DNA of 64,000 nt from a bacterium (GTDB taxonomy: Bacteria > Vulcanimicrobiota > Vulcanimicrobiia > Vulcanimicrobiales > SCRA01). The notes beneath the pieces were generated by a model, which saw only the letters and a program-made list of their open reading frames with translations, ran no database searches and was not told the DNA's origin. Positions within the stretch are counted from its first letter, which is position 1. Each line of letters starts with the position of its first letter. The DNA is taken from NCBI GenBank assembly GCA_004297985.1, contig SCRA01000043.1, positions 1 through 64,000 on the forward strand. The letters run 5' to 3'. The position numbers were made by a program, and so were the translations under genes. Positions 3,723 to 22,916 of the stretch are shown piece by piece.

Positions 3723-4568
3723 ATGTACACGACGATCGTCGATCCGCGGTCCCTGCACGAGCACCTGAACGACCCGGCATGGGTGGTCATCGACTGTCGC
3801 AACGACTTGACTCACCCCGATGCCGGGGAGCGGGCGTATGCGCTCGGGCACATCCCGGGGGCCTTCCACGCCTCGCTCGAAGGCGTGCTCACCGGCGCGA
3901 AGACGGGGCGTAACGGGCGACACCCGCTGCCGGAGCCCGAGAACTTCATGCGGTTTCTGCGCCAGGCCGGGGTGGACGATCAGACGCAACTGGTGGTCTA
4001 CGACGACGGGGGCGACATGTATGCAGCGCGCCTGTGGTTCATGGCGCGCTGGGTAGGTCATGACGCAGCGGCGCTGCTCGACGGCGGTTATGCCGCCTGG
4101 ACGGACGCGGGTTACTCCGTCTCCCGCGAAGCCGCCACGCCGCGGGGCACGACGACGCCCGGAGTCCTTCTGGTCCGACGCGAGACCACCACGGAGGCAG
4201 GCGAGATCCTGGCTGCACTGGGCACCCCGCACCTACTGATGCTCGACGCGCGCAGCCCCGACCGCTTCGCCGGCCAGAATGAGAGTATCGATCCCGTAGC
4301 CGGCCACATCCCTGGGGCGCACAATCGCTTCTTCAAAGAAAACTTCGACGAACGCGGGCGCATGAAGCCGCCGGAGCAGCTACGCGCGGAGTTCGTCGCC
4401 GCCGGCGTCGCGGCGCCGGAGCGGGTGGTGCACCAGTGCGGATCCGGCATCTCGGCGTGCGTCAACCTGTTGGCGATGGAGCATGCCGGCCTGGCGGGAT
4501 CGCGGCTCTACCCCGGGTCGTGGAGCGAGTGGATATCCGATCCCTCGCGCCCCGTCATGCGCGAGTAG
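3723..4568 (+). CDS. sseA: Two-domain rhodanese: 3-mercaptopyruvate or thiosulfate sulfurtransferase
   Basis: This family moves sulfane sulfur from 3-mercaptopyruvate or thiosulfate to cyanide, thiols or thioredoxin through a cysteine persulfide. The 281-residue protein has two rhodanese domains (about 5-130 and 155-280). The first is inactive; the second carries the catalytic loop CGSGISA with Cys239. CGSGxTA-type loops are typical of mercaptopyruvate sulfurtransferases, while thiosulfate enzymes more often have CRxGxR/T, which favours mercaptopyruvate. There is no signal peptide, so it is probably cytoplasmic. It diverges from the str operon and is followed by a cytochrome c gene on the same strand 92 bases on. 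Confidence 0.9.
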   Translation: MYTTIVDPRSLHEHLNDPAWVVIDCRNDLTHPDAGERAYALGHIPGAFHASLEGVLTGAKTGRNGRHPLPEPENFMRFLRQAGVDDQTQLVVYDDGGDMYAARLWFMARWVGHDAAALLDGGYAAWTDAGYSVSREAATPRGTTTPGVLLVRRETTTEAGEILAALGTPHLLMLDARSPDRFAGQNESIDPVAGHIPGAHNRFFKENFDERGRMKPPEQLRAEFVAAGVAAPERVVHQCGSGISACVNLLAMEHAGLAGSRLYPGSWSEWISDPSRPVMRE

Positions 4569-4660
4569 ACGGGGCGGCGCCCGGTCGCTAGGGGTGCGGC
4601 ACAACCCGAGCGAAGCGCTCTGGCCTTGGAAGCACTTCGACTTCGTGAGGAGCGTGCGTA

Positions 4661-5035
4661 ATGATGATTCGCCTTACGATTGCGTCTTTGACCGCCATGG
4701 CTTCCCTCTCCATTCTCGGTCTCTGGCACGCCAATGCAGTGTCCGCCGCAGGCTACGGCGTGGCGGGCGTGCAGGTGGCGTCGACCAGCAACATCAGCAA
4801 CGGCAAGAAGATCTACGCCGCGAACTGCGCGTCGTGCCACGGCGCCAGCGGCGAAGGCGGCGTCGGTCCCAGCTTGCATGGGGATCTCAAGACGCCCGTC
4901 ATGAAGCGCACGAAGACGGCGCTGGTCGCATGGATCAGGGACCCGAAGCCGCCGATGCCCAAGCTCTATCCCGGGACGCTGAAGGCGAAAGACGTCGACG
5001 ACGTTGCGGGGTACGTGCTGGCGACCTTCAAGTAG
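4661..5035 (+). CDS. Small secreted class I cytochrome c
   Basis: A mono-haem periplasmic electron carrier of 124 residues. The N-terminus (residues 1-30) is a hydrophobic signal peptide ending near the AVSAA segment. The haem attachment motif CASCH is at 56-60, and Met99 in a PPMPKLYP segment is the probable distal ligand. It is preceded by GAGGAG about ten bases before the first of two adjacent ATGs, so the start could be 4661 or 4664. The redox partner is not evident. It shares orientation with the upstream sulfurtransferase; electron transfer linked to sulfur oxidation is possible, but sequence alone does not show it. Confidence 0.88.
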   Translation: MMIRLTIASLTAMASLSILGLWHANAVSAAGYGVAGVQVASTSNISNGKKIYAANCASCHGASGEGGVGPSLHGDLKTPVMKRTKTALVAWIRDPKPPMPKLYPGTLKAKDVDDVAGYVLATFK

Positions 5036-5047
5036 CACGCACCAACC

Positions 5048-5437
5048 TCAGCCGTAGATATCTGCCGTGTCGGCGTCTGCGTTGGATTTGGTCGCGTGAA
5101 CCGTGCCGGGCCGGTGATGCGGCGGGCTGTAGATGGTGTAGAGTCTCAGCGCCTCTCCCGCATTGGCCACGAAGTTGTGGCGGGTTCCTTCCGGCACGAC
5201 CACGACGTCGCCGGCGGCAATCGGCCGCCGCTGACCGCCCAAAATTGCTTCACCCCTGCCTGAGACAAAGGCTAGGATCTGATCGGTCCCGGTATGGATC
5301 TCCTCTCCGATCTCACCACCGGGCTCCACGCACATCAGGACGAGCTGCGTGCGCTCGGTCGTGTGGAGTACTCGTCGAAAGTCGGTATTCTCGAGCACGA
5401 GCCTGCGGACGTCAGCCGCGTACGATTGGTACGCCAT
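5048..5437 (-). CDS. Cupin-fold protein
   Basis: A 129-residue single-domain cupin. Cupin motif 1 (residues 41-60) reads GEIGEEIHTGTDQ..., with His48 but no second His, so the metal site is of the reduced H..DQ type. Motif 2 (76-90) is GDVVVVPEGTRHNF with His87. Such small cupins include sugar-binding, metal-binding and regulatory proteins; no specific reaction can be assigned. A good AAGGAG ribosome binding site precedes the ATG. It converges on the cytochrome c gene with 12 bases between, and an 8-bp perfect palindrome lies 33 bases upstream of its start. Confidence 0.82.
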   Translation of the reverse strand: MAYQSYAADVRRLVLENTDFRRVLHTTERTQLVLMCVEPGGEIGEEIHTGTDQILAFVSGRGEAILGGQRRPIAAGDVVVVPEGTRHNFVANAGEALRLYTIYSPPHHRPGTVHATKSNADADTADIYG

Positions 5438-5469
5438 CGATGTCTCCTTTTCTCTCCGCCCGCGCGCCG

Positions 5470-5492
5470 TTGGTAGGTGTTTACCCTACCAA
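5470..5492. promoter_or_regulatory. Perfect 8-bp inverted repeat upstream of the cupin gene
   Basis: TTGGTAGG (5470-5477), a 7-base centre and CCTACCAA (5485-5492) form a perfect palindrome 33-55 bases before the cupin start codon, in a 119-base gap with no gene. The position and half-site length suit an operator for a dimeric regulator. No promoter boxes I would trust overlap it. Confidence 0.5.
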
Positions 5493-5556
5493 ATGCGGGC
5501 GAAGACGCACGGAACTTTTCGCGAAAGCAAACGCCCGGTAGGTTCGCGGATTGGCG

Positions 5557-6804
5557 TCACGACATCGACGGCGTCAATTCGTTCTTTACAAGATCTCCAG
5601 CCTTCATGATCAGGTCGAGGTGCTCACCTTGGCCGGTCAACAACGCGATGTCCTTCAGCGGGTCACCATCGACAACCAAGAGATCGGCGGAGGCGTCCGG
5701 CGCGATGACGCCGAGCCGGCCGTCCATTCTCAAGATCTCCGCGCCGACTGCCGTAGCGCTAGCGATCACCTCCGCAGGCGAGAGTACCTCGGTACGGAGC
5801 AGGAACTCGCGGCTCTGGAATCGATGCAGTTCACCAAGCAAGTCACTCCCAAACCCCATCTTCACGCCGGCGTTCCTAAACCGCTCGAGGGACCGCAATC
5901 CCTCCAGCCGCACGTCGTCGATCTTCGCTACGGAGGCAGCGGGCAGGCCTAGCGAAGCGCCCTGCGTAGCCAATGCCTCATACGTGATGAGCGTGGGGAC
6001 GGCGTAGGCACCCAGTTCGTGCATCCGTACCGCCGTTTCGTCGTCAATCAAATTGCCGTGCTCGATCGTTCGTACGCCGCTGTCGATCGCGCGGCGGATA
6101 GCCAGCGCCGTATAGGCGTGGGCGAGGACATACGTATTCTGTGCCTGCGCCTCGCCCACGATGGCTTTCATCTCGTCAAGCGAGTACTGCGTACCGTCGA
6201 TCCTATCGGTTGGTGACGCGACTCCGCCGGACGCCATGATCTTGATCTGCCCCGCACCCTTCCGAAGTTCGTCGCGCACGGCCTGGCGAACGGCATCGAC
6301 GCCATCAGCCACCCGAGCCATTGCACCAATGCGGCTGCCGCAGGCGCAGGGAGCCGCCTCATCGCCCCTGCCACGGAAGTCGCCGTGCCCGCCCGTTTGG
6401 CTCAACGCCTTACCAGACGGAACGATGCGCGGTCCCGCCACCAGGCCCTCCTGTACCGCCTGCGCAAGGAAGAGATCGGCCCCCCCGGTGTCGCGTACCG
6501 TGGTAAAGCCCCGCATGAGCATACCCTGGAGAATGGGGATAGCACGATATGCAGCGAGCGCGTTCGGGAGCTCGGAGTTCGCGGCGAGGTTCAGTCGCGA
6601 GGCCGTCACGTGTACATGGCAGTCGATGAGGCCGGGCATCATGGTACGGCCGCCGAGATCGATGACCGTAGCACCGGGCGCATGGATCGGCTTATCCGAG
6701 ACATCGCGAATGCTCGGGCCCTCGACGAGCACCTCGAAGCCATCGCGGAGCTGGGCCTCGTACGGGACGAGGAGCCGACCATTCCTAAAGAGCAGTTGAC
6801 TCAT
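5557..6804 (-). CDS. Metal-dependent amidohydrolase (imidazolonepropionase/prolidase-like, COG1228 type)
   Basis: A cytosolic amidohydrolase-superfamily hydrolase of 415 residues. Binuclear metal ligands are visible: H63xH65 in DCHVHV, Lys188 (IKIMASGG, the lysine that is carboxylated in this group), His229 (LAHAYT), His249 (TIEHGN) and Asp321 (GSDLL). This arrangement matches the group containing Xaa-Pro and Xaa-Arg dipeptidases and related amidases, so a peptide-like or N-acyl substrate is likely but not certain. AGGAGG lies 15 bases before the ATG, further than usual. It diverges from the IclR gene next door, its probable regulator. Confidence 0.87.
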   Translation of the reverse strand: MSQLLFRNGRLLVPYEAQLRDGFEVLVEGPSIRDVSDKPIHAPGATVIDLGGRTMMPGLIDCHVHVTASRLNLAANSELPNALAAYRAIPILQGMLMRGFTTVRDTGGADLFLAQAVQEGLVAGPRIVPSGKALSQTGGHGDFRGRGDEAAPCACGSRIGAMARVADGVDAVRQAVRDELRKGAGQIKIMASGGVASPTDRIDGTQYSLDEMKAIVGEAQAQNTYVLAHAYTALAIRRAIDSGVRTIEHGNLIDDETAVRMHELGAYAVPTLITYEALATQGASLGLPAASVAKIDDVRLEGLRSLERFRNAGVKMGFGSDLLGELHRFQSREFLLRTEVLSPAEVIASATAVGAEILRMDGRLGVIAPDASADLLVVDGDPLKDIALLTGQGEHLDLIMKAGDLVKNELTPSMS

Positions 6805-6836
6805 GGCGTTGTAAAGTATCCTCCTGACCGGCGGCC

Positions 6837-6858
6837 GGGAACGAGACGGGAACGAGAC
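6837..6858. repeat. 11-bp tandem duplication in the amidohydrolase-IclR divergent region
   Basis: GGGAACGAGAC occurs twice head to tail (6837-6847 and 6848-6858) in the 73-base gap between two divergent genes. Tandem 11-mers put the same face of the helix forward once per turn, which suits cooperative regulator binding. No independent support for that. Confidence 0.45.
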
Positions 6859-6877
6859 GAGAGGGCCCGAGGACGGC

Positions 6878-7717
6878 TTGACACAATATCACGCACGGAT
6901 GGAACGAGCCCAAACCGTCGAGCGAGCCATGCGTCTACTTGCGGCCTTCAGCGAAGACGAGCCGGAGATGACTGTTGCCGAGATCGCGCGCCGACTCGAG
7001 CTCCCGCGGACGATCGTGGTTAGACTCGTCGATACGCTCGCCTCGGCCGGCTACCTGGAACGAAGTGCCCGCGATGGCCGCTACCGGATAGGGCTCGCCG
7101 CGTTCAAACTCGGAAGCCTGTACGCGGCCACGAACCCTCTGCACGCCTATATCTCGAGCGAGCTGGCGGATCTTGCGTCCGAAACGGGCTACACCGCGTA
7201 TTTCGGAGTGCTCGACGGCGCCGAGGTAGTCATCATCTCGCATCACGAGGGGCGTCTACCCGTCCGCTTCGTTTGGACCGCAGGTGATCGCCTTCCCGCT
7301 GCTACGACCGCACTCGGCAAGGCCATGCTCTCGCAGCTCGATATGCAGCAACTGGATGCCGCGCTCGGCAATGATCGGCTCCGCGGGCTCACCGAACACT
7401 CTCTGGCGACGCGTGAGGAACTCGATCGACAGCTCTCCGAGATTCGGGAGCGAGGCTGGGCCCTTGCGCGCGACGAGAGCGCCATCGGCATCACCGCCGT
7501 CGGCTCGGCTGTCCTCAACACGCATGGCGCACCGCTCGGCGGCCTCAGTTTGAGCTTTCTGGATTACCCGCACGATCCAGCCCACCTGAAAGATGTCGGC
7601 ACGATCGTTCACAAGGCCTCGGTCCGCGCAACCGAGCGGGTCGCCTTCTACGAGCACTACGGTCATCGGGCCGTCGCCACATCATCGGGACGCCGGTCTC
7701 GTTTCGCCCGCACCTGA
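6878..7717 (+). CDS. IclR-family transcriptional regulator
   Basis: An N-terminal winged helix-turn-helix (TVAEIARRLELPRTIVVRLVDTL, about residues 30-55) is followed by the IclR effector-binding domain, with the family features GYRIGLAAFKLG, PAATTALGKAMLS and the GWALARDESAIGITAVGSAV segment that forms the ligand pocket. Length is 279 residues from TTG at 6878, which has GAGGA four to five bases upstream; an ATG at 6899 would give 272 residues and starts closer to where IclR alignments usually begin. It diverges from the amidohydrolase and probably controls it, possibly also the importer operon that ends just downstream on the other strand. Confidence 0.92.
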   Translation: MTQYHARMERAQTVERAMRLLAAFSEDEPEMTVAEIARRLELPRTIVVRLVDTLASAGYLERSARDGRYRIGLAAFKLGSLYAATNPLHAYISSELADLASETGYTAYFGVLDGAEVVIISHHEGRLPVRFVWTAGDRLPAATTALGKAMLSQLDMQQLDAALGNDRLRGLTEHSLATREELDRQLSEIRERGWALARDESAIGITAVGSAVLNTHGAPLGGLSLSFLDYPHDPAHLKDVGTIVHKASVRATERVAFYEHYGHRAVATSSGRRSRFART

Positions 7718-7720
7718 GGG

Positions 7721-8191
7721 TTACGCAACGCGGAGCGACTTGGAGGCGAGATCGTACAGTTTGTAGAGGCCGCCGGCGATGCTTCGCGCCGCCTCCGGCC
7801 CGTCGACCAGATGCTCGCTGCTGACGTACTGGCTCTCCCCCGCCGCCTCGGCATAGTACGCCTCCAACCCCTGCGCTCGGCACAGCGTCTTCAGGCTTTC
7901 AAACGCTTCGCATGCGGGGCGCGCGCTCGCCAAGCAATGGATACCGAGGCGAACACGCAGGTTGTCCGGGTTGACGACGGCGCCGGCATGGAGATCCCAA
8001 AACGAAAAGGGACCTAGTGGGACGGCAACCCAGTAGAAGTGGGCGTTTTGTCTCCGGAGCCGCAGGACCTCGGGCTCCTTCGTCTTCTCCATCTCGGGGC
8101 CATAGTAGATCTTCACCTCATCCGCAAACAGCGGATGAGCGGCGTCTCTTAGAGACGCACAGACACGCACGATGTCATGACGCTTAGTCAT
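7721..8191 (-). CDS. Unrecognised 156-residue protein, last gene of importer operon 1
   Basis: I do not recognise this family. The product, counted from an ATG that overlaps the livF stop as ATGA, is a soluble alpha/beta-looking protein with no signal peptide or membrane segment. It has a central hydrophobic strand region (HFYWVAVPLGPFSFWDLHAG, 51-70), four cysteines and a C-terminal helical stretch. Translational coupling to the ATPase gene argues for a function tied to the transported substrate. An upstream extension of the frame exists but lies wholly inside livF, so the coupled start is preferred. It converges on the IclR gene with three bases between. Confidence 0.7.
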   Translation of the reverse strand: MTKRHDIVRVCASLRDAAHPLFADEVKIYYGPEMEKTKEPEVLRLRRQNAHFYWVAVPLGPFSFWDLHAGAVVNPDNLRVRLGIHCLASARPACEAFESLKTLCRAQGLEAYYAEAAGESQYVSSEHLVDGPEAARSIAGGLYKLYDLASKSLRVA

Positions 8192-8895
8192 ACTCGAACT
8201 CCAAGGTAACGCTGCCTCACCACATCCGAACCGAGCAGCGATGAGCCGGCGTCTTCGATAGAAATTTGACCACTTTCCATTACGTACGCGCGATCGCATA
8301 TCTCGAGCGCTTTGTTGGCATTCTGCTCAACCAACAGTACCGAGATGCCGTTCTCGCGGATCCACGATATGCGGTCGAATATCGCACGCACGTTGTCCAC
8401 CGACAAGGCCGCAGAGGGTTCATCCATCATGAGCAGGTCGAACGGCTTATTTATCAGCGCTCGTGCGATAGCCAGCATCTGCCGCTCACCACCCGAGAGC
8501 AGGCCGGCGCAGGTACGCATGCGAGCGCCGAGGCGAGGAAAGAGCTGAAGCACCTCCGCGAGGGCCGTTCGGAAATCCCTTCGCACGTAGCAAACCTGCA
8601 GCGTCTCGTAGACCGTCAAGGTCGGGAAGATGTTTCCCACCTGAGGGACGTAAGCCAGACCCGCGGCCAACGTCTTCTCCGGGTCGATGCCGGTGATATC
8701 CCTGCCGTTCAGCCTTACGCTCCCGCTGCGCGGCGGCAGGAGGCCGGCAATGGTATTGAGCAGAGTTGACTTCCCCGCGCCGTTAGGGCCGATCACGGCC
8801 ACGATTTCACCCTGCTCCACACGAAGTGTCACGCCCTTGACGATGTGCTGGCCGCCGTAGCCCGATTCAAGCGCAGTTACGGTAAATTGCTTCAT
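8188..8895 (-). CDS. livF: Branched-chain-type ABC importer ATPase, LivF-like (operon 1)
   Basis: One of the two ATPases that power a HAAT-family (LivJHMGF-type) importer at the inner membrane. In 235 residues it shows Walker A GPNGAGKST (36-44), signature LSGGER (133-138), Walker B LLMMDEP (154-160) and a switch region ending LLVEQN. The EQN ending and short length are typical of LivF rather than LivG. The start at 8893-8895 (MKQFTV) is chosen because the longer frame reads back into livG. Substrate specificity is set by the binding protein and cannot be read here. Confidence 0.92.
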   Translation of the reverse strand: MKQFTVTALESGYGGQHIVKGVTLRVEQGEIVAVIGPNGAGKSTLLNTIAGLLPPRSGSVRLNGRDITGIDPEKTLAAGLAYVPQVGNIFPTLTVYETLQVCYVRRDFRTALAEVLQLFPRLGARMRTCAGLLSGGERQMLAIARALINKPFDLLMMDEPSAALSVDNVRAIFDRISWIRENGISVLLVEQNANKALEICDRAYVMESGQISIEDAGSSLLGSDVVRQRYLGVRV

Positions 8896-8905
8896 CTTCC
8901 GAACC

Positions 8906-9673
8906 TCACGCCTTCCCGAGATATGCGGCTTGCACTCTCTCGTTGCACTGCACGTCACTCGGGCGGCCGCTCGCGAGCAGCTCGCCATCGACGAGCACAT
9001 ACACCCAATCGGCAACTCTCATTACCGCCTCGAGATTATGCTCGACGATGAGGAGCGTTTTCCCTTGAGCACCTATATCCACGAGGTGTTCGAGGATCTG
9101 CTCGCCTACACTCACCGGCACGCCGGCGAGAGGCTCGTCGAGCATCAGCAGCCTCGGTGCGAGCATCAGCGCACGAGCGAGCTCCAGTAACTTCTTCTCG
9201 CCGGCGGAGAGCGTCTCGGCCTTGACCTCGCGGCTAGCGAGAAGCCCCAAAAACTCGAGAATTCCGTACGCCGTCTCCGTATTGACGCGCTCCTGCTCAC
9301 GCGCCGCCCGCCGGGACCAAAGGCCCACCGGAAAGCGCTCGCCGATTTGATCGCTGCTGGCAACGAGCAAGTTATCGAGAACGCTCAAACCGCCGAACTC
9401 GTGCGGAATCTGGAACGTCTTGACGATGCCTCGGCGGGCGCGCAGGAAGGCTGGTTTGCGCGTGATCTCCTCCCCGCTATACCGGACCATGCCGCTGTCG
9501 GCCTGGACGAAACCCGAGATGATGTCGAAGAGCGTGGTCTTCCCCGCGCCGTTGGGGCCGATGAGTGCGGTGATCGATCCTGGCTTCAGGGCAACCGATA
9601 CCGACTTGAGGACGCGGCTTCCGACATACGATTTCTCGATGTCACGAGCTTCAAGAAGCATCTCTTCGCTCAC
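8906..9673 (-). CDS. livG: Branched-chain-type ABC importer ATPase, LivG-like (operon 1)
   Basis: A 255-residue ABC ATPase with Walker A GPNGAGKTT (39-47), Q-loop Gln88 in KTFQIP, Walker B LLMLDEP and an H-loop IVEHNLE. The ABC signature is LSAGE (155-159) instead of LSGGQ, an unusual but still glycine-centred variant. The longer region between Q-loop and signature (about 95-150) is typical of LivG. Its ATG overlaps the livM stop codon as ATGA, so synthesis is coupled. It pairs with the LivF protein encoded 10 bases downstream. Confidence 0.92.
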   Translation of the reverse strand: MSEEMLLEARDIEKSYVGSRVLKSVSVALKPGSITALIGPNGAGKTTLFDIISGFVQADSGMVRYSGEEITRKPAFLRARRGIVKTFQIPHEFGGLSVLDNLLVASSDQIGERFPVGLWSRRAAREQERVNTETAYGILEFLGLLASREVKAETLSAGEKKLLELARALMLAPRLLMLDEPLAGVPVSVGEQILEHLVDIGAQGKTLLIVEHNLEAVMRVADWVYVLVDGELLASGRPSDVQCNERVQAAYLGKA

Positions 9674-10581
9674 GACACATCAGCCGATCGTCTCGACCGC
9701 CTACTCTTCATCCTTCCCATGATGCCCTCGGGACGGAAGACGATGAGCAGGACAAGAGCAAGGCCGATGATCATGAAACGCAGAGCCGACTGTTGATTCG
9801 CGGAGAAGATATGCACGTAATCCTGGAGCACGATCGAGCCCTGCAGGAAGAAGATCAAGACGAACGCCCCGATCACCGGCCCGAGCAGGCTTCCGACCCC
9901 ACCCAAAATCAGCGCGATAAAGGTATTGAAGGTAACGTCGGGCGAGAACTGGTCCGGCGATATGTACTGTACCCAATGCGCATAGAGTGCGCCGGCAAGT
10001 CCAGCAATCGCGGAGCCGACCACGAGTACGAGCACCTTGTAGCCGACCGTGTTCTTTCCCAATGCCTGCGCCGCAGACTCATTGGCCTGAATCGCTCGCA
10101 AGAGGCGCCCCAACGGGGAATGGCCGATCTGCCAAATGAGATATGCCGTGAACGCGGTCAGCGCGGCGATTGTCAGGAGCGCCAACGGAGCGGAGAGGTG
10201 GGGGCCAAGCGCCGCAAACGGCCGATGAATGCCCGTTATGCCGATCGCGCCGTGCGTCAACTGCCGCTCGTTCAATACGACCAGGAGCGCCAGCTCGGAG
10301 AAGCCCAAGGTGACCACCGCGAAGTAATCGCCCCCCAAACGGATGGTGAGCAGCCCCAGCGGGTAGCTCGCTAACGCCGCCAGGGCTGCCCCCGCTGCCC
10401 ATCCGGCCAGAAGCGGCCAGTGGAGATCAACCGTGAGGAGTGCACTCGTATAGGCGCCGATTGCGACGAACGCAACGTACCCGAAGTTGATGATACCGGT
10501 GAAGCCCATCTGGAGATTCAAGCCCAGTGCCAGCATCGTATAGATGAGGCCGAAGGCGATGACCGTATAGACGTACGTCAT
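9670..10581 (-). CDS. livM: Branched-chain-type ABC importer permease, LivM-like (operon 1)
   Basis: An inner-membrane permease of 303 residues with several strongly hydrophobic spans. The LivM hallmarks are GLNLQMGFTGIINFGYVAFVAIGAY near the N-terminus, the cytoplasmic coupling segment SPLGRLLRAIQANESAAQALG, and GGVGSLLGPVIGA before the last spans. The start at 10579-10581 overlaps the livH stop (ATGA). The longer open frame upstream lies within livH and is not used. Confidence 0.92.
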   Translation of the reverse strand: MTYVYTVIAFGLIYTMLALGLNLQMGFTGIINFGYVAFVAIGAYTSALLTVDLHWPLLAGWAAGAALAALASYPLGLLTIRLGGDYFAVVTLGFSELALLVVLNERQLTHGAIGITGIHRPFAALGPHLSAPLALLTIAALTAFTAYLIWQIGHSPLGRLLRAIQANESAAQALGKNTVGYKVLVLVVGSAIAGLAGALYAHWVQYISPDQFSPDVTFNTFIALILGGVGSLLGPVIGAFVLIFFLQGSIVLQDYVHIFSANQQSALRFMIIGLALVLLIVFRPEGIMGRMKSRRSRRSADVS

Positions 10582-11447
10582 GCTCTCACCGCCTCTCCAA
10601 ACAACCCACGCGGCCTCACCAGCAGGACGATCATGATCAGGAAGAAGGCGATACCCTCCTCGTAACTGGTTGGGATCCACATGATGCCCAACTGGCTGAC
10701 CAACCCCATGAGAAACGCACCGACGGCGGCGCCGAAGGGATTTGAGATGCCGCCGAAGATCGCAGCCGCGAAGGCCAGCAACAACACATCCCAGCCTAGC
10801 GTTGGGGAGATCACGTTCCTCGCGCCCAAGAGAATGCCGGCCGCTCCCGCCAGCACCGACACGAGTATCCACATCGCTAAGTGAATACGCGCCGGGCTGA
10901 TTCCACTGAGCCTGGCCAAGAAAGGGTTATCCGAGACGGCACGCATGCGCCTCCCAATCTGGGTTCCTCGAAACATCCACCACACACCAAGGAGCGCACC
11001 AAACGCGACGCCCAAAAGCACGAGATCCAGCGGCCTCACGACAACGAGGCCGAGACGAACACCACGCTCGGCAGGCAGCGGAAATGTCTGAAAGTCGCTG
11101 CCGAACGAGAAGATGACGCCGTAGCGCAGGAATAGCTCTACCCCGATCGACGCGATGAAGAGATTGAGCATCGGGCGTCCTGCGAGGTACCGATAGACTC
11201 CTAGGTGCATCCCGACACCCGTAGCGGCTGAGATCGCGAGGCCAAAGAGCACCGCGAGGGGCAGGGGTAGGTGCCAGACCCCTGCCGCCAGCCACGCGGC
11301 ATAGGCCGCGATCGTCATGAGCGAACCGTGAGCGAGGTGAGGAAAGCCGGCGATGCGCCACACGAGCGCCAACCCCAGCGCCGGCAGTGCAAGGATCGCC
11401 CCCAGGACCACGCCATCGACGATGTGTTGCGCGAGTTCAGCTATCAT
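10578..11447 (-). CDS. livH: Branched-chain-type ABC importer permease, LivH-like (operon 1)
   Basis: A 289-residue hydrophobic permease that would pair with the LivM-like subunit. The family features are the early FPHLAHGSLMTIAAYAAWL segment, a cytoplasmic loop QIGRRMRAVSDNPFLARLSGI that docks an ATPase, and the near-terminal FGGISNPFGAAVGAFLMGL. It lies 21 bases after the binding-protein gene and is coupled to livM by a 4-base overlap. Confidence 0.92.
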   Translation of the reverse strand: MIAELAQHIVDGVVLGAILALPALGLALVWRIAGFPHLAHGSLMTIAAYAAWLAAGVWHLPLPLAVLFGLAISAATGVGMHLGVYRYLAGRPMLNLFIASIGVELFLRYGVIFSFGSDFQTFPLPAERGVRLGLVVVRPLDLVLLGVAFGALLGVWWMFRGTQIGRRMRAVSDNPFLARLSGISPARIHLAMWILVSVLAGAAGILLGARNVISPTLGWDVLLLAFAAAIFGGISNPFGAAVGAFLMGLVSQLGIMWIPTSYEEGIAFFLIMIVLLVRPRGLFGEAVRA

Positions 11448-11468
11448 GACGTTTGCCTACCTTGCGGT

Positions 11469-12731
11469 CTAGATGAGTTCCCGAGCCGGGTAGAGCTCCA
11501 ACTGCTGCCGCGACGTTCCATCGAGTCTCCAAACCGCGAAGTTACTCACGATATCGTGATGGTCGTCGAAGTCACAAGGGCCCGAGGCACCTTGGTAGTT
11601 GATCTTCTTGCCTTCTCTCAGAAGCTTCGCCCCAGTCGCGAAGTCGTAGACCTCGACTCCCGGAGGGCCCGCGATGTCGCGCATCTTGGCCGCCACGGCC
11701 GCAGCGTCAGTCGACTTCGCCGCCTCCATAGCCAGCGCCAACAAGTTCATCTGATCGTGAGCCTGAGCCGGCCAGAAGTTATCGGCGAGGCTAGAGCCCG
11801 TGGCCGCCTGGAACGTATCGGCGAACGCCTTGTAGCCAGGCTGCGTCACCGGCGGTATGCCGTCGACGGCAAAAAAGCCATTGACGACCGCCGCACCAAC
11901 GTTCTTCACCAACGCATCGTTGAACGCGAAGCCAGGACCCATGACATGCGTCTTGACATTCGCGGCATACCACTCTTTCGCAATGATGGAGGCATCCGGT
12001 GTATACCCGACGATGATGAGCAGGTCCGGATTCCCCTGCAGCGCTTTCTGGACCTCACCCGCGTACGACGCCGCCTTGGGATTGTAGATGACGATATTTT
12101 CGATGTTCGGCATGCCCAGACGCCGCCATTCACCTTGAATGGCATCGCGCATCGTCAGCGCGTACGGGTTGTTCAACACCAAGAGCGCCAGCTTGCGATA
12201 GCCTTGCTTCTTCGAGAACCTCGCCATGGCAAGACCATACGGGCGGTCTGTCGGCTGAGTCCGGAAGACCAGACGGCGATACTTCGGCGAGGTAACGTCT
12301 CCCGCACCCGACGTGTTCATCTCCAGCACGCCCGCCTGCGTCGTGATGGGCAGCACAGCGAGCGTAACGGCGCTGGACCACGTACCGATGATCGCCCCGA
12401 CGTGGTTCAGGCTGATGAGCTTCTGCGCAGCGGCGACTGCGGCATCGGGGCTCGTCTGGCTGTCTTCGCTGATGATGCGGAGCTGGCGCCCGATCGGTCC
12501 GCCCGCCTTATTGATGCTATCCGCGGTGATCTCGATCGCCTTGAGCATATTCGGGCCGTACGGCGCTCCGCCGCCGGTCAACGGAACCATGACGCCCACG
12601 GGAATATCGGGCCCGCCCTTGGCGAAAGCCGGCAGGTTAAAGGCAAGCCCGCTTGCGAGACCCGAGAAGATTCCCGCCGCAGAGGCTCCCGCCCCGAGGA
12701 CGAAATGCTTACGAGTGACATCTTGACGCAT
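11469..12731 (-). CDS. Periplasmic substrate-binding protein of importer operon 1
   Basis: A type I periplasmic binding fold (Leu/Ile/Val-binding type) of 420 residues. The first 37 residues are an export signal with a TRKHF stretch and a hydrophobic core ending AFA; an arginine-lysine pair makes Tat export possible but not certain. The mature part opens with DIPVGVMVPLTGGGAPYG, the classic first strand and ligand loop. GGAGAA precedes the ATG. The preferred ligand (amino acid, amide or small organic acid) cannot be deduced. It is the second gene of the operon, after the unrecognised 450-residue protein. Confidence 0.9.
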   Translation of the reverse strand: MRQDVTRKHFVLGAGASAAGIFSGLASGLAFNLPAFAKGGPDIPVGVMVPLTGGGAPYGPNMLKAIEITADSINKAGGPIGRQLRIISEDSQTSPDAAVAAAQKLISLNHVGAIIGTWSSAVTLAVLPITTQAGVLEMNTSGAGDVTSPKYRRLVFRTQPTDRPYGLAMARFSKKQGYRKLALLVLNNPYALTMRDAIQGEWRRLGMPNIENIVIYNPKAASYAGEVQKALQGNPDLLIIVGYTPDASIIAKEWYAANVKTHVMGPGFAFNDALVKNVGAAVVNGFFAVDGIPPVTQPGYKAFADTFQAATGSSLADNFWPAQAHDQMNLLALAMEAAKSTDAAAVAAKMRDIAGPPGVEVYDFATGAKLLREGKKINYQGASGPCDFDDHHDIVSNFAVWRLDGTSRQQLELYPARELI

Positions 12732-12823: not shown

Positions 12824-14176
12824 CTAGATGATGTACCCCAGACGCTCCATGCGGCGTAGATAGAGCTCTGGCTTCGCGGGCTCCCAGGGCAGAGGCTCGA
12901 TCGGGTCAACTGGCGCGAAGCGCGGGTGAATCGGCCTTCCGCTCAGCTCTGGAAGCCACGACTCCTGAAAGTCGATCTCCCGATCGAACGTGGCGTCGAT
13001 CGTGCCGGTGACGCGATCGAAAAAGTGTTGGATACCGGAAGGGCCTAACGCCCCGATTTCGGACGGAAGATTGCCGTCCGCGACGTGGTGCTGGAACGCG
13101 CGCTCGAGCGAACCGACCAAGCCGAGCAGGTCCACCTTTGCGCCGCGCAGCCGATGCTGGAACGCGACCTGACAGAGGGCGAAGCGTACCGCTCGGTCTT
13201 GCAGCTCGCGATCCCGAACGGAGTCCGGAGCCGCACCCAGGCCCGCTTCGCCATTGAACTCGCCGGCGTTACCGCCGCTCGCGAAGAATGGCCGTACGAT
13301 TGCAATGGCGTCGATCCAGCCATCGAAACGAGTCGGAACCATCCGATCGCCGAGGCGAACCGCCAGCCAACGATCGGCGATTCCGGCCCGGCGCGCCTCT
13401 TCGACCCACGACTTCGCAACCGTCTGCGTGCCCTGCTTCACCGCGGAGGTGATGCGTGGAAAAGGCGGGATCAGCTCCGCTTCACCACCGACTGGCCTGC
13501 CGTTAGCCGCGCCAGAAAGAGGTTGACCTGCCAGCACACGACCGATGTTCGCGGCATCCTGACCCTGCGAGAGGCCCAAACCCAGCGGAAGCTGGTCAAA
13601 CGAAACTTGTGGAAGGGGCCGCGTCACCTCGTAGGAGTATCCATGCGTCGAGGCGCCGGCAGTACGATCCGGATGGGGGGCGAACCCGCGCGAGCGCTCG
13701 ATGACTTCCCAGCGCCAAGCGAGCGCGATCTCCGCCTGATCGAAGAACTCGGTGACGACGCGTTGTACTTCGGCCCGCTCACCGGTCGTAAAGGCCGGCG
13801 AGTCGTCGATCGCATCGCGATATGCATCCCGCATGAACTTGAGGTAGAGAACGTACTGCCACAGACGCGTGTCGATCTTCCAGTGAAAGTCCGCCTGCCA
13901 TCGGCCATAGCGAGTCGCTGCGTTACCGCCCGACCAGGACGTCACCTCCTGCGTGTCGAGCTGCGGCACTTTGCCGCCATCGACAAATCCGAAGATACTC
14001 TTCGTCGTCACGTTGGCGGCATGGATCCAGCCGTCGATCTTCGTGGTGAAGATTCCGTCCGCAATCGGAATTCGCAGCAGCTCGTCGACCGCGCCGGCCG
14101 CGCACGCCTGCTTGAACCAGTTGCGGCCAATCTCGTCATCTAAACTCGCGAGCTTATCAAGAATAAGTCGATTCAT
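12824..14176 (-). CDS. Unrecognised 450-residue protein with an internal duplication, first gene of importer operon 1
   Basis: I cannot assign a family. No signal peptide or membrane span is visible, so it is probably cytoplasmic. Two segments are clearly homologous: residues 20-68 and 257-302, each opening with W-x3-A-x2-AG-x2-D and reaching T-x2-DGWI-x-A and a closing GG. A tryptophan- and aromatic-rich helical region (92-165) separates them, then a proline-glycine linker. So it looks like a tandem two-domain protein. It heads the operon for a branched-chain-type importer and diverges from proline dehydrogenase, so an enzyme acting on the imported compound is a reasonable guess, no more. 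Confidence 0.75.
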   Translation of the reverse strand: MNRLILDKLASLDDEIGRNWFKQACAAGAVDELLRIPIADGIFTTKIDGWIHAANVTTKSIFGFVDGGKVPQLDTQEVTSWSGGNAATRYGRWQADFHWKIDTRLWQYVLYLKFMRDAYRDAIDDSPAFTTGERAEVQRVVTEFFDQAEIALAWRWEVIERSRGFAPHPDRTAGASTHGYSYEVTRPLPQVSFDQLPLGLGLSQGQDAANIGRVLAGQPLSGAANGRPVGGEAELIPPFPRITSAVKQGTQTVAKSWVEEARRAGIADRWLAVRLGDRMVPTRFDGWIDAIAIVRPFFASGGNAGEFNGEAGLGAAPDSVRDRELQDRAVRFALCQVAFQHRLRGAKVDLLGLVGSLERAFQHHVADGNLPSEIGALGPSGIQHFFDRVTGTIDATFDREIDFQESWLPELSGRPIHPRFAPVDPIEPLPWEPAKPELYLRRMERLGYII

Positions 14177-14212
14177 GAAACATCCTCATGGACCGTCCGT
14201 TTATCGGTTTAC

Positions 14213-14242
14213 TTGACTCAAGTGCGGTTGGCGGATTATACC
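14213..14242 (+). promoter_or_regulatory. Probable promoter of the proline dehydrogenase gene
   Basis: A -35 TTGACT (14213-14218), an 18-base spacer and a -10 TATACC (14237-14242) lie 75 bases before the ATG at 14317. This is the only good sigma-70-like pair in the 140-base divergent gap. Confidence 0.55.
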
Positions 14243-14316
14243 ATTACGGTAACGAGTTGCGCAAGCCGTTGCGCTCGCGCCTCGACCCTCATCCGAAACA
14301 GGAGTGATGCCGGACC

Positions 14317-15207
14317 ATGGCTCTACTCGAGCGCGCGATTGCAAGTCCCCGCTTTCAAGAGCGTTGTTTCTTCCTAGCCAAACGTTTCGTTGCAGGCGAA
14401 ACGACAGGACACGCGATCGATGCGGTGCGCCGTCTCAACGCAGACGGGCTGAGCGCAACGCTCGACTTCCTCGGTGAGGACGTCTCAGATGCTACGGAGG
14501 CACGCGCATCCGCACATCAGACATTGCGGACGATCGAGGAGATCGATAACGCCGGCGTTGACGCGAACATCTCCGTCAAGTTGACGGCACTCGGTCTCAC
14601 GATCGATGAAGATCTCGCTGCCGATCATCTCATGCAGATCGCCGAGCGTGCGTTGCACAACCACGATCCCTTCGTCCGAGTCGACATGGAAGGCAGCGAC
14701 GTCGTCGACGCCACACTCCGCGTCGTAGAGCGCATCTATTCCGGCCATGACAACGTCGGCGTGGTGCTGCAGGCCTACCTGCATCGCACCGAGCGCGATC
14801 TCGAGCGCGCAATCGCGCTGCGGCAGCGCGTACGGGTGGTCAAAGGCGCCTACAACGAGCCGGCTGCCATTGCTTACAAGAACATGGCCGAGATCCGGCG
14901 CCGCTACCTAGAACTTACGAGGCGTCTCCTCACGGACGGCCACTACCCGGCCATCGCCACGCATGACGTCTCGTTGATCGAGCGCGTCATGCACATGGCC
15001 GAGGAGCTCGGGGTGACGAAGGATCGCTTCGAGTTTCAGATGCTCTACGGAATCAGAACGGATACACAACGGCGACTCGCCGTCAACGGCTATCGCGTCC
15101 GCGTCTACGTCCCGTTCGGCAGCCATTGGGCGGGCTACTTTTATCGACGCCTGGCCGAACGTAAGGAAAACGTCTTGTTCGTGCTTCAGTCGCTCTTCAC
15201 GAAGTGA
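14317..15207 (+). CDS. Proline dehydrogenase (monofunctional, FAD-dependent)
   Basis: This enzyme oxidises L-proline to delta-1-pyrroline-5-carboxylate and passes electrons to the quinone pool. At 296 residues it has only the beta/alpha-barrel catalytic domain, not the PutA fusion. Family signatures are the NISVKLTALGL strand, VRVDMEGSD, VVLQAYLHRTERDL, VVKGAYNEP (FAD/substrate contact) and the C-terminal YVPFGSHWAGYFYRRLAERKEN block with the paired arginines that bind the proline carboxylate. No pyrroline-carboxylate dehydrogenase is adjacent. Its 3' end overlaps the convergent GGDEF-EAL gene by 22 bases. It diverges from importer operon 1, which may import the substrate. Confidence 0.94.
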   Translation: MALLERAIASPRFQERCFFLAKRFVAGETTGHAIDAVRRLNADGLSATLDFLGEDVSDATEARASAHQTLRTIEEIDNAGVDANISVKLTALGLTIDEDLAADHLMQIAERALHNHDPFVRVDMEGSDVVDATLRVVERIYSGHDNVGVVLQAYLHRTERDLERAIALRQRVRVVKGAYNEPAAIAYKNMAEIRRRYLELTRRLLTDGHYPAIATHDVSLIERVMHMAEELGVTKDRFEFQMLYGIRTDTQRRLAVNGYRVRVYVPFGSHWAGYFYRRLAERKENVLFVLQSLFTK

Positions 15208-18386: not shown

Positions 18387-19658
18387 ATGTTCGAACGACT
18401 CATGAGGCGCGAGACTTTCATTAAATCGGCGGCAGCCGGAGCCGGCGCCCTGACATTCGGTGCGCCGGCCTTCATACCAGCACGCAGCGAAGCGGCCGAT
18501 CGGATCGTGCTTGGCATGACGAACCCCCTGACGGGGACGTACGCGAGCCTCGGACAGGGCCAGATGCGCGGTGCCCAGATGGCGGTTGCTGCGTGGAACA
18601 AGCGGGGCGGCGTCATGGGGCGTGAAGTCGACCTCCTCTCGGAAGACGACGCCGCGGACCCTGGAGTAGCGGTAGAAAAAGCGCGCAAGCTCGTCAATCA
18701 AGGGAAAGCGGTTGCACTCGTCGGCACGGTGTCCAGCGCCACCACGCTATCCGTCAGCTCTGCGGCTAACGCGCTTGGTAAGGTCTTCATCGACATGGGC
18801 GGTTCCGCGGACTCCATGAGCGGAAAGGACTGCAAGTGGGGCTCATTCCGAACGTGTAAGACCGCCTACCAGCTTACACATGCCACCGGATTCGTCTTTC
18901 AGAAGAACTTCGGTAAACGTTGGTATATGATCACGCCCGACTACGCGTTCGGCCATGGGCTTGCCGCCGGCTATACCGCGGTTGCCGAGCAAGCGGGCGC
19001 AACCATCGTCGGAAACGACTTCACGCCGCTGGGCACCACCGAGTTCAGCTCCTACCTGCTGAAAGTACAAGCCGCGAAGCCCGATGTGCTGATCGTCAAC
19101 GTCAGCGGCAACGATTTCGTCAGTTGCATGAAGCAGGCCCAGGCATATAACATCCTCAAGAACACGCCCGTCGGCGGGCCGCTGATGGAGCTCGAAGGGT
19201 TGTGGGCGCTTCCCGAGAGTGCCCGGATGGGATATTGGGGCGTCGAATGGTACTTCAGCGGCGACGCAGTGCTCGGCAAGAAGCAGAGCGCGATCGACTT
19301 CGTGCGTCAATACCGCAAGGCACACGGAACTCCCCCTACCGCCCGCTCGTGCTTCGGCTACATCACCGTAGACCGGCTCCTCACCGCCATGAGCGAGACG
19401 AAATCGACCGACGCGGTCAAGGTGGCTCGTGCGCTCGAGGGATCTGAGTTCGATTCGCCGCTGTGGTCCGGCAAAGCGTACATCCGCAAGGACGACCATC
19501 AGATGATGTGGCCGATGTGGGTCGCCAAAGTCCGACCGAGCGGTGTTCCTGGCGACAAGTACGATACGTTTGAAGATTTCGCGCGCGTCGACGCGGAGCG
19601 GATCACGGTTCCCGTGTCGGAAGTCCGCAAGACCTGCACCATGTCCTATCCATCTTGA
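18387..19658 (+). CDS. Orphan branched-chain-type substrate-binding protein
   Basis: A 423-residue Leu/Ile/Val-binding-type protein. The N-terminal 36 residues form a signal with a twin arginine (MRRETFIK) and a hydrophobic stretch ending ARSEA, suggesting Tat export. The mature start IVLGMTNPLTGTYASLGQGQ is the usual ligand-binding first strand. No permease or ATPase gene lies next to it; instead it heads a run with a zinc alcohol dehydrogenase and an aldehyde dehydrogenase (gaps of 15 bases each). It may lend its ligand to one of the three importers elsewhere in the window or act as a sensor. GAGGAGG-like ribosome binding site upstream. Confidence 0.88.
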   Translation: MFERLMRRETFIKSAAAGAGALTFGAPAFIPARSEAADRIVLGMTNPLTGTYASLGQGQMRGAQMAVAAWNKRGGVMGREVDLLSEDDAADPGVAVEKARKLVNQGKAVALVGTVSSATTLSVSSAANALGKVFIDMGGSADSMSGKDCKWGSFRTCKTAYQLTHATGFVFQKNFGKRWYMITPDYAFGHGLAAGYTAVAEQAGATIVGNDFTPLGTTEFSSYLLKVQAAKPDVLIVNVSGNDFVSCMKQAQAYNILKNTPVGGPLMELEGLWALPESARMGYWGVEWYFSGDAVLGKKQSAIDFVRQYRKAHGTPPTARSCFGYITVDRLLTAMSETKSTDAVKVARALEGSEFDSPLWSGKAYIRKDDHQMMWPMWVAKVRPSGVPGDKYDTFEDFARVDAERITVPVSEVRKTCTMSYPS

Positions 19659-19673
19659 AGTGATTGGGGAACG

Positions 19674-20711
19674 ATGAAAGCAGCAGTAATTACGGATGTC
19701 GAGAAGATCGACATCCGTGAACTCGATCTCCCTACGATCCGTCCACACTACGCGCTCGTACGCGTGGCTGCGGCAACGCTGTGTGGAACGGACTTACATC
19801 AATACGGCGGCAAGATCAAGACGCCGCTGCCCCGCATTCCAGGCCATGATTTCAGCGGTGTCATCGAACAGATCGCCCCTGGCCACGACAGTTTTCGCGA
19901 GGGCGATCGCGTGGTGGTCAAGCCGTCGTTTCCGTGCGGAACCTGTGAGTACTGCACCCGTTGCGACTACGGCGCTTGCGAAGACAAGAAACTCATTGGA
20001 CTTCACGGCGACGGCTGCATGGCCGAGTACATTGTTGCACCGATCGCCAATTTGATACCCTTGCCGCAGGGCGTATCGTTCGAGGCCGCCGCCAACCTCG
20101 AGATGTTCACTGTCGCAATGAACACGATGAAGCGCATTCAACCGCGCTTGGGCGAGTGGGTCGTCGTTCTGGGGCAAGGACCAATCGGTTTGGGACAGAC
20201 GCGGATGGCCAGCCTCTCCGGGGCGCGCGTGATTGCCGTCGACGTGCGCCGCGAGGCGTTAGAGATGGCGCGCGACTTTGGCGCAGACATCACCCTCCAG
20301 TCCGCCGAGTGTGACGTCGTTGCCGAGGTCAAGAAACTCACCGGCGTTGGGGCCGACATCGTCATCGAGTGCGTGGGCGCAAAGGCCACCGTCGATCTCA
20401 TCTTCCAACTCGTACGTAAGGAAGGGCGTGTCGCCAACGTGGGCTTCCAGATTGGCGCCGCCACGTACGACCTTATTCCAATCATGCTTCGCTCGCTTAC
20501 CATCTACGGCATCGGCGGAAACGGCGGGCGTGGTCAGTACGAGACGGTGATCGCCCTCACGGAGAGCGGAAAGATTCAGCCGGAGCGTTTGATTACTCAC
20601 CGCATGCCGCTCAGAGATGCGGCCAAAGCGTTCTCGATCGCTCACAGGAAGAGCGAGCCGGTCCTGAAGGTCGTGCTCTCTCCGAACACGGACCTGGCCG
20701 GTCACCCATAA
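19674..20711 (+). CDS. Zinc-dependent medium-chain alcohol dehydrogenase
   Basis: A 345-residue NAD(P)-dependent dehydrogenase. The catalytic zinc ligands are Cys37, His58 and, unusually, Asp59 where most relatives have Glu (PGHDFSG). The structural zinc site is Cys88, Cys91, Cys94 and Cys102, with an extra Cys97. The Rossmann fold is marked by VVVLGQGPIGLG and IAVDVRREAL (an acidic residue favouring NAD). Located between an orphan binding protein and an aldehyde dehydrogenase, it probably oxidises an alcohol intermediate to an aldehyde that the next enzyme converts to an acid. The substrate is unknown. Confidence 0.92.
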   Translation: MKAAVITDVEKIDIRELDLPTIRPHYALVRVAAATLCGTDLHQYGGKIKTPLPRIPGHDFSGVIEQIAPGHDSFREGDRVVVKPSFPCGTCEYCTRCDYGACEDKKLIGLHGDGCMAEYIVAPIANLIPLPQGVSFEAAANLEMFTVAMNTMKRIQPRLGEWVVVLGQGPIGLGQTRMASLSGARVIAVDVRREALEMARDFGADITLQSAECDVVAEVKKLTGVGADIVIECVGAKATVDLIFQLVRKEGRVANVGFQIGAATYDLIPIMLRSLTIYGIGGNGGRGQYETVIALTESGKIQPERLITHRMPLRDAAKAFSIAHRKSEPVLKVVLSPNTDLAGHP

Positions 20712-20726
20712 CGCGAGGATATCGAT

Positions 20727-22220
20727 ATGACGAGCATAGCTGAAGCCCCAGTCAAGAACTACCAACTGTACGTTGACGGTCAATGGACGGACTCGCTCTC
20801 CGGCAGGACGTACGAGTCGTCGAATCCTTTCGATGGTCGAGTGTGGGCGCGCGTGCCGGACGGCGACGCCGCCGACATCGATCGAGCCGTCGCGGCGGCA
20901 AGAAACGCGTTCAAGAAGGGCCCATGGTCGAAGATGACCGGTCGCGACCGTGCGAGGCTGATGCGGCGCCTGGCCGACATTCTGGCGCGTGACTACAAGG
21001 AGCTCGCGCTTGCCGAAACTACGGACAACGGGAAGCTGCTGCGCGAGTCCCTAGGCTCCTCGGCATCCTGGCCTGACTGGTATAACTACTTCGCCGGCAT
21101 GGCCGATAAGATCGAAGGCTCGACGATCCCGTCCGATCGCAAGAACTTCTTCGTTTATACGCGGCACGAGCCGATTGGCGTCGTCGGCGCCATCTTGCCG
21201 TGGAACTCGCCGATTCTCCTTTTGACGTTCAAGCTTGCGCCGGGTCTTGCTGCCGGCTGCACGTTCGTCGTCAAACCCTCCGAATTCACCCCGGTCTCAA
21301 CGCTCGAGTTTGCCAAACGGATGGAGGAGGCGGGCTTTCCACCGGGTGTCTTCAATGTGGTGACGGGCGGGACGGCTGAAGCCGGCCGCGCCCTCGTTCA
21401 GCACCGAGGGATCGACAAGATCGCTTTCACGGGCTCGGCCCAAACCGCCATTGCCATCGGCCGCGCCTCGGTCGAGAACCTGACTCCGGTCACCTACGAG
21501 TTGGGCGGCAAGTCGCCGAACATCATCTTCGACGACGCCAACCTCGATATCGCGGTGAACGGCATTCTCTCCGGCATCTTCGCCGCCAGCGGACAGACCT
21601 GTATGGCGGGCTCACGGCTGCTCGTCCAAGAGGGGATCCACGACGTGCTCGTGGAGCGGCTTGCCGCTCGAACGAAGACGATCCGACTGGGGTCACCGAC
21701 GGAGCCGGAGACGGAGATGGGACCGCTCGCGAATCGGCCTCAATTGGAGAAAGTGCTGTACTACCTAGACGTCGCGAAGGCCGAAGGCGTGCAGATCGTG
21801 TGCGGAGGGCGGGCGCGGCCCGACCTCGGCGAACTCTTTGTCGAGCCGACGATACTCACGAATGTTCGCAACGAGATGCGGGTCGCGACCGAGGAGATCT
21901 TCGGCCCAGTGCTCTCCGTCTTACGTTTCTCGACGGAAGAGGAGGCGATAGAGATCGCCAACGAGACACGCTACGGCCTGGCGGCGGCGGTTTGGACGGA
22001 GAACATCCGCCGCGCGCATCGCGTAGCGCACGCGCTGCAAGCTGGAACTGTCTGGATCAACGCATACCGGACGGTCGCGCATAACGCACCGTTCGGCGGC
22101 TACAAGATGAGTGGCTGGGGGCGCGAGAACGGCGTCGATGCGGTGCGCGAGTACACGCAGACCAAGTCCGTATACGTCGAACTCGAAGGCGCTACTCGCG
22201 ATCCGTTCATTCTAGGGTAG
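20727..22220 (+). CDS. NAD(P)-dependent aldehyde dehydrogenase
   Basis: A full-length 497-residue ALDH. The catalytic Cys292 is in SGQTCMAGSR, the general base Glu258 in TYELGGKSPN, and the cofactor motif FTGSAQTA is present. The C-terminal NAPFGGYKMSGWGRENG block is typical of the betaine/hydroxymuconic-semialdehyde-like branch. Its ATG lies 15 bases after the alcohol dehydrogenase stop, so the pair should act in sequence (alcohol to aldehyde to carboxylate). The 3' end overlaps the convergent RraA-like gene by 9 bases. Confidence 0.93.
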   Translation: MTSIAEAPVKNYQLYVDGQWTDSLSGRTYESSNPFDGRVWARVPDGDAADIDRAVAAARNAFKKGPWSKMTGRDRARLMRRLADILARDYKELALAETTDNGKLLRESLGSSASWPDWYNYFAGMADKIEGSTIPSDRKNFFVYTRHEPIGVVGAILPWNSPILLLTFKLAPGLAAGCTFVVKPSEFTPVSTLEFAKRMEEAGFPPGVFNVVTGGTAEAGRALVQHRGIDKIAFTGSAQTAIAIGRASVENLTPVTYELGGKSPNIIFDDANLDIAVNGILSGIFAASGQTCMAGSRLLVQEGIHDVLVERLAARTKTIRLGSPTEPETEMGPLANRPQLEKVLYYLDVAKAEGVQIVCGGRARPDLGELFVEPTILTNVRNEMRVATEEIFGPVLSVLRFSTEEEAIEIANETRYGLAAAVWTENIRRAHRVAHALQAGTVWINAYRTVAHNAPFGGYKMSGWGRENGVDAVREYTQTKSVYVELEGATRDPFILG

Positions 22221-22850
22221 GCGATCGAACACCGCTTGCATACCGTAGAGATCGAACGTGAAGCCGCCGCGCTCGATCTCTGCGCGTACCCGCTGCTCGC
22301 GCTGTTCCCGCTCCCCGCACGCCTGTAGCACCGGCTGAGCTTTGGCCGCCTCGACGGCAACCCCACCGTCCGCGTCGAGCACGACGACGTCACCCGGCTG
22401 GATGAGGCAGCTGCCGACGGTCACCGGTACGTTGACGGCACCGATATGTCTCTTCGTGGCCGTGCGTGCTCGAATGAAGCGCGCCCAAACCGGTACGCCC
22501 AGCGACTGGAGCTCCTCCACGTCGCGGACCGCGCCGTCCACCAGGATGCCGGCGGCACCGCGAGCCCGCGCCTGACGCACCATCAGCTCGCCCATCAAGG
22601 CGACGGCCTCGGGAAGCGGCATGCTGAGCACGAGTATCTCACCTGCCTCCAGCTCTTTGAGCGCCGCGTGAACCATCAGGTTGTCGCCCTGCCCGCAGAG
22701 AACCGTCCGCGCGGGCCCGGCTGCTCTGGTGCCGGGGCACAACTGGATGAGCGGAGCGTCGATCAGACCAGTACGGCCGTTACCCTCCAAAACCGTCGAG
22801 ACGCCGTACTCGGCGAATCGCCGATACTCATCCGGCATAAGTGTCGACAT
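22212..22850 (-). CDS. RraA-like protein / 4-hydroxy-4-methyl-2-oxoglutarate aldolase family
   Basis: A 212-residue member of the family that holds class II HMG/CHA aldolases and the RNase E inhibitor RraA. The loop DGAVRD (105-110) supplies the catalytic arginine and metal-binding aspartate, and GDVVVLDADGGVAV is the usual closing motif. In aromatic catabolism the aldolase cleaves 4-hydroxy-4-methyl- or 4-carboxy-4-hydroxy-2-oxo acids to pyruvate plus pyruvate or oxaloacetate, which fits the oxidative genes around it. The start codon ATG at 22848-22850 sits inside operator-like site C, so a repressor there would cover the start; an alternative ATG is at 22838. Confidence 0.85.
   Translation of the reverse strand: MSTLMPDEYRRFAEYGVSTVLEGNGRTGLIDAPLIQLCPGTRAAGPARTVLCGQGDNLMVHAALKELEAGEILVLSMPLPEAVALMGELMVRQARARGAAGILVDGAVRDVEELQSLGVPVWARFIRARTATKRHIGAVNVPVTVGSCLIQPGDVVVLDADGGVAVEAAKAQPVLQACGEREQREQRVRAEIERGGFTFDLYGMQAVFDRLP
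22840..22849 (+). promoter_or_regulatory. Operator-like site C, AGTGTCGACA, over the RraA-like start codon
   Basis: Exact decamer match to sites A, B and D. It overlaps the first codons of the leftward gene and lies 75 bases from site D, so the two sites bracket the divergent promoter pair. Confidence 0.6.
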
Positions 22851-22904: not shown

Positions 22905-22916
22905 TACCGCGACAAC

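Follow-up and report, generated by a model that had tools for sequence, protein, structure and literature searches.

A predicted soluble two-repeat protein of no recognised family heads a Liv-type importer operon next to prolidase and proline dehydrogenase genes

The closest described counterparts of the locus reported here are Liv-type (HAAT-type) importer operons headed by a gene for an M24 protein. On three rhizobial plasmids (Mesorhizobium amorphae, Sinorhizobium alkalisoli and Agrobacterium pusense) an M24 gene directly precedes the genes for a related periplasmic binding protein (SBP) and LivHMGF. A paralogous operon in the genome analysed here (G000; locus L041, contig C22, positions 3562-11765) has the order: PucR-type regulator - M24 - SBP - LivH - LivM - LivG - LivF - proline dehydrogenase (proDH). 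This arrangement, including the terminal proDH, is present in G000 and in its relative G029, and its first part is seen in a second relative, G031. The M24 protein of the analysed genome has creatinase (PDB 1chm) as its best match (E 3.5e-42), and in the M24 proteins beside the related importers, which look creatinase-like, the usual metal ligands are replaced, taking the ligand positions to be those established for M24 enzymes. Since the usual metal-ligand pattern is lacking, the imported solute may not be a proline peptide.

A second point of reference is provided by the cog1228 prolidases. The amidohydrolase encoded near the importer is ~60% identical to the proteins of PDB entries 3mkv and 3feq/3n2c, the latter of which were deposited as 'PROLIDASE', and we take these to be the two cog1228 prolidases (Sgx9260b/c) of Xiang et al. 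2010. The likeness concerns the flanking amidohydrolase, which is a neighbour of the protein that is the subject of this study. Relatives of the amidohydrolase (57-58% identity) occur on two Burkholderiaceae plasmids: in Burkholderia they adjoin genes for 4-hydroxyproline epimerase, an FAD oxidoreductase and a member of the DHDPS family, and in Paraburkholderia proline racemase-type genes; the three other contexts of amidohydrolase relatives that were inspected held no link to hydroxyproline or proline racemase-type genes. The study of Xiang et al. 2010 is cited in PMC10781821.

The locus lies in a stretch of 64,000 nucleotides, which was analysed as a whole and is called the window below. Its central operon has the order X450 - SBP - LivH - LivM - LivG - LivF - orf156, in which X450 denotes the 450-residue protein under study and orf156 a second orphan (Table 1). 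A gap of 92 nt separates the X450 and SBP genes, and there are 4-nt overlaps between livH and livM and between livM and livG. The five central genes make up a Liv-type importer (an SBP followed by a pair of permeases and then a pair of ATPases), and a prolidase and a proDH gene adjoin it, as in a locus for proline or Xaa-Pro salvage; the proDH beside X450 matches NF045947 (E 4e-87, under the curated cut-off). The operon resembles the M24-headed ones in its SBP-LivHMGF order, in its SBP (38-42% identical to theirs) and in having a soluble protein encoded immediately before the SBP. The nearest relative of its SBP within the same genome is the SBP of the paralogous operon (41% identity), and the paralogous-operon SBPs of G000, G029 and G031 are all 40-42% identical to it. 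The operon differs from its paralogue in ending with orf156 instead of proDH, and X450 bears no detectable sequence relation to the M24 proteins: an assignment to that family (creatinase, prolidase or ectoine hydrolase) was rejected on the lack of a Pfam match and on profile P values of 0.15-0.47. The locus, in our verdict, is of an ordinary operon type with an unusual protein at its head.

Table 1. Features of the X450 locus (positions in the window)
Feature	Position	Strand	Basis or remark
X450 (two-repeat orphan, first gene of the operon)	12824..14176	-	ATG start at 14176, reading to 12824; 450 residues; repeat, codon and dN/dS tests; no family match
N-terminal X450 repeat	13577..14146	-	residues ~11-200 as aligned; includes the most constrained stretch, 81-190
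C-terminal X450 repeat	12827..13438	-	residues ~247-450 as aligned; 301-400 relaxed, 401-450 constrained
SBP, periplasmic (Peripla_BP_6)	11469..12731	-	Tat-like signal; family match and sequence inspection
LivH-type permease	10578..11447	-	PF02653, 1.7e-38
LivM-type permease	9670..10581	-	PF02653, 5.8e-46; start set by relatives
LivG-type ATPase	8906..9673	-	similarity to LivG of related operons
LivF-type ATPase	8188..8895	-	PF00005 and relatives; start codon seen
orf156 (second orphan, last gene)	7721..8191	-	ATGA overlap with livF
IclR-family regulator	6878..7717	+	convergent with orf156, divergent from prolidase
cog1228-type prolidase (amidohydrolase superfamily)	5557..6804	-	PF01979; PDB 3mkv, 3feq/3n2c, E about 1e-151
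Proline dehydrogenase	14317..15207	+	divergent from X450; family match, 71% identical to proDH of the paralogous operon
Perfect palindrome ACTTGACTCAAGT	14211..14223		putative element in the X450/proDH divergent intergenic region

The order from X450 to orf156 is found in full in G029 and in a third relative, G030, while the contig of G031 stops inside the SBP gene. A survey of the genomic context, which had been proposed for co-occurrence with the importer genes, thus recovered the X450-SBP adjacency in 4/4 genomes and orf156 as the terminal gene in 3/3 whose contig reaches that far. Upstream of X450, G031 carries a dihydroxy-acid dehydratase-like ORF instead of proDH, and therefore the link with proDH extends to 3/4 genomes. 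G000 (3.2 Mb) has three proline dehydrogenase genes, on contigs C29, C22 and C7, two of which adjoin Liv-type importers. Elsewhere in the window (18387-25128) there are genes for a second Liv-type SBP, a zinc alcohol dehydrogenase, an aldehyde dehydrogenase, an RraA-like aldolase, a PcaD-like hydrolase and an FAD-binding molybdopterin dehydrogenase subunit.

The intergenic region from which X450 and proDH diverge contains the perfect palindrome ACTTGACTCAAGT, which differs by a single change in G029 and likewise in G030. A conserved block, GGATTATA[CT]CATT, follows at 14233-14245. Both persist with few changes in three genomes and, judged by eye, could be elements of the divergent promoters. 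A scan of this intergenic region for strict consensus sigma-70 promoters found none.

X450 is a genuine gene under purifying selection, because its GC content per codon position (GC1/2/3 0.68/0.48/0.73) is normal for the window and its dN/dS values against the three relatives are low (0.09, 0.13 and 0.17; Nei-Gojobori). The encoded protein contains 13 tryptophans and 2 cysteines. Inspection for a signal peptide or a membrane segment revealed neither, and the hydropathy peak (19-residue Kyte-Doolittle mean) is 1.07, compared with 2.28 for LivH, so that X450 is predicted to be soluble.

The earlier note had proposed an internal duplication from the resemblance of residues 20-68 to residues 257-302, and this homology proved to be well founded. 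Local alignment of residues 1-225 with residues 226-450 gave a score of 80, whereas shuffled halves scored 32.1 on average (sd 4.9) and 56 at best among 1000 shuffles; it places residues ~16-74 onto ~253-309. The half-to-half match recurs in all four known sequences, and a comparison of the half-profiles with hhalign gave a P of 1.2e-6 (residues 16-58). The extent of the repeat had been underestimated, however: the two patches of ~50 residues are too short. In the most diverged relative (58-60% identity overall) the halves align across ~140 residues, and an alignment of all eight halves has the invariant positions W, A, G, D, L, D, T, GW, R, Q, F and HP, and conservation reaches as far as the HP motif, close to where each unit ends. 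The unit is therefore a whole domain of ~190 residues, and X450 arose by the doubling of essentially that entire domain.

Selection has not acted evenly on the two copies. The most constrained stretch comprises residues 81-190 (dN/dS 0.03-0.07), the tail (residues 401-450) is strongly constrained as well (0.02-0.12) and the helices of residues 301-400 are relaxed (0.20-0.37). Both repeats therefore contribute, but unequally, and we infer a pattern like that of duplicated folds in which one working site survives. An AF2 model, built on an alignment of four sequences, was too poor for a fold search (mean pLDDT 39, pTM 0.32), and with these four sequences no catalytic motif, cofactor motif or fold was recognised.

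X450 was found in four genomes of one genus: the window's own (G000) and G029, G030 and G031, whose proteins are 90, 77 and 58% identical to it. Searches with X450 against Pfam, NCBIfam and PHROGs returned no match at E ≤ 10, and those with its relatives, halves and consensus sequences returned chance-level matches only (best E 0.065). Against the sequences of the PDB, phmmer found nothing at E ≤ 10 and the profiles stayed at chance level (best E 0.24). A tblastn search of plasmids and phages, together with a scan of viral contigs, yielded no homologue, nor did a profile search in 388 relatives, and in the 149 genomes of the phylum outside the genus the profiles found nothing convincing (best E 0.05). 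In samples of two further groups (250 + 201 genomes) there were three matches with E 0.004-0.007, which were not taken as homologues because chance alone would produce such values over ~450 genomes; two of them (L046 and L047) overlap longer ORFs on another strand or frame and the third (L045, E 0.004) is a PAS-GGDEF protein. When ~85,000 species genomes were scanned with exact 8-residue patterns, which would miss distant relatives, X450 was recovered only in two members of the same genus; the two named members of the host genus that were found are both metagenome-assembled genomes. Within the genomes searched, X450 thus appears to be restricted to one genus. Its earlier portrayal as a soluble, unrecognised protein, encoded first in an operon whose last gene is also unrecognised, is upheld by the hydropathy, the gene map and the family searches, and X450 is probably the first member of a hitherto undescribed family of soluble, mostly alpha-helical proteins.

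Two distant family assignments were pursued by profile-profile comparison, with column shuffles and unrelated families as controls. One of these bears on the idea of a sensory or regulatory role for X450 in the cytosol, in which its tandem helical domains would bind the imported solute and act through another protein, for instance the IclR regulator, to control either the operon or the importer. Tandem helical repeats in the first gene of the operon, and the lack of a catalytic motif, would suit such a role, and the highest-scoring profile match of the C-terminal half was to the sensor domain RsbRD_N (PF14361; P 0.04-0.21, column-shuffle p 0.01), which is likewise helical and whose first helix, with a conserved W, aligns to both halves of X450 in the same register. 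Yet this alignment covers 22-28 residues only and is not significant, the rest of the ~100-130-residue domain fails to align, Pfam makes no call, and X450 has no output or DNA-binding domain. The homology to RsbRD_N is thus unsupported, and we regard a sensory or regulatory function as rather unlikely.

The other assignment was to the tryptophan 2,3-dioxygenase family (TDO; PF03301), in which case X450 would be a diverged member of this superfamily of His-ligated haem aromatic oxygenases and would oxygenate the imported compound. The best single profile alignment was indeed that of the N-terminal half with TDO (P 0.03 over 41 columns, column-shuffle p 0.02); it pairs residues 136-176, in the most constrained segment, with the haem-ligand helix and the G/T/S-rich loop after it, and the 13 tryptophans and several invariant histidines of X450 would be in line with such a relation. 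The resemblance is confined to this short motif, however, and the haem histidine has no counterpart in X450: there is a 3-residue gap at its position, and in an ungapped alignment R155 faces it. TDO was also chosen after the motif had been seen, and the match is not significant once the number of families tried is allowed for; a Pfam or PDB match at E ≤ 10 is lacking. X450 is moreover a tandem duplication, which TDO is not known to be. Homology to TDO is therefore unsupported and an oxygenase of this type very improbable. Neither RsbRD_N nor TDO was accepted, because IclR, an unrelated control family, reaches a P of 0.065 and both candidates had been picked after a resemblance was seen.

The last gene of the operon, orf156, is translationally coupled to livF and its product is 83% identical to that of G029 and 77% to that of G030. 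In the genomes searched it had no family match and no relatives outside the genus, so that X450 and orf156 appear to be equally restricted to one genus. A predicted model of orf156 was of medium confidence (pLDDT 65), and a proposed ExsC / DR_1245 fold was not accepted (best E 0.12, TM about 0.4 against PDB folds); a match in G117 was discarded as well, as it overlaps cytochrome-oxidase genes in a different frame. A Neorhizobium petrolearium plasmid (L027, 6390-12593) has a Liv-type operon with a gene for a 154-aa GAF-domain protein directly before that for an amidohydrolase, which is 50% identical to the window's prolidase, and L073 likewise has a gene for a GAF-domain protein in the neighbourhood of a related amidohydrolase gene; in a comparison by eye, no relation was seen between the L027 GAF protein and orf156. 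The seeming confinement of X450 and orf156 to the same genus, and the X450-SBP order in all four genomes, would agree with X450 having no chemistry of its own and serving as a scaffold or accessory subunit, either for the importer or for a complex that includes orf156, the SBP, LivG or LivF; its long, aromatic and invariant helices could then form an interface. The related Liv importers of the same genome and of rhizobia, on the other hand, have no X450-like subunit, and we consider this role rather unlikely.

The reading that we put first, tentatively and at somewhat less than an even chance, is that X450 is a cytosolic enzyme of a new duplicated-domain family that catalyses the first step on the importer's solute in a proline-salvage locus. 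Two features place it first: the slot is filled by an M24 enzyme in the related operons, and X450 has long aromatic helices that are almost invariant. The Liv-type importer would bring in a proline-related solute, on which X450 would act in the cytosol, most likely as the enzyme of its first conversion and not as a binding or partner protein. The locus may thereby salvage proline-containing peptides or N-substituted proline; the guess of the substrate was narrowed to these compounds because of the neighbouring prolidase and proDH genes, on which the earlier note had not drawn, and of the paralogous operon that ends with proDH. The working site is probably made up of the core of the N-terminal repeat (residues 81-190) together with the C-terminal tail (401-450), with a mainly structural role for the middle of the second repeat, and the split of constraint between these segments and residues 301-400 is what one conserved site predicts. 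A narrower version, in which X450 represents a new enzyme family born of the duplicated helical domain, acts first on a proline-derived solute in the cytosol and has taken over the slot of the creatinase-type M24 enzyme, seems to us possible but doubtful. It should be weighed against this reading that equivalence of position with M24 is no proof of equivalence of function, that the locus already encodes a hydrolase, that the M24 proteins of the related operons look creatinase-like and that G031 has no proDH upstream of X450; the evidence base is four known sequences. The suggestion in the earlier note of an undescribed catabolic or sensing activity can be kept for its catabolic half, for which X450 is a good candidate, and finds no positive support for sensing, given the missing output domain and the non-significant RsbRD_N match.

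If X450 were a scaffold or a sensor, the finding would be of less interest. The locus frames the question of its function tightly, since a full importer is accompanied by genes for prolidase and proline dehydrogenases and a paralogue exists in which the slot is held by an enzyme of known fold. Knowing which ligand the SBP binds would immediately hint at what X450 acts on, and imino-acid catabolism could thereby gain a new family of enzymes or binding proteins.
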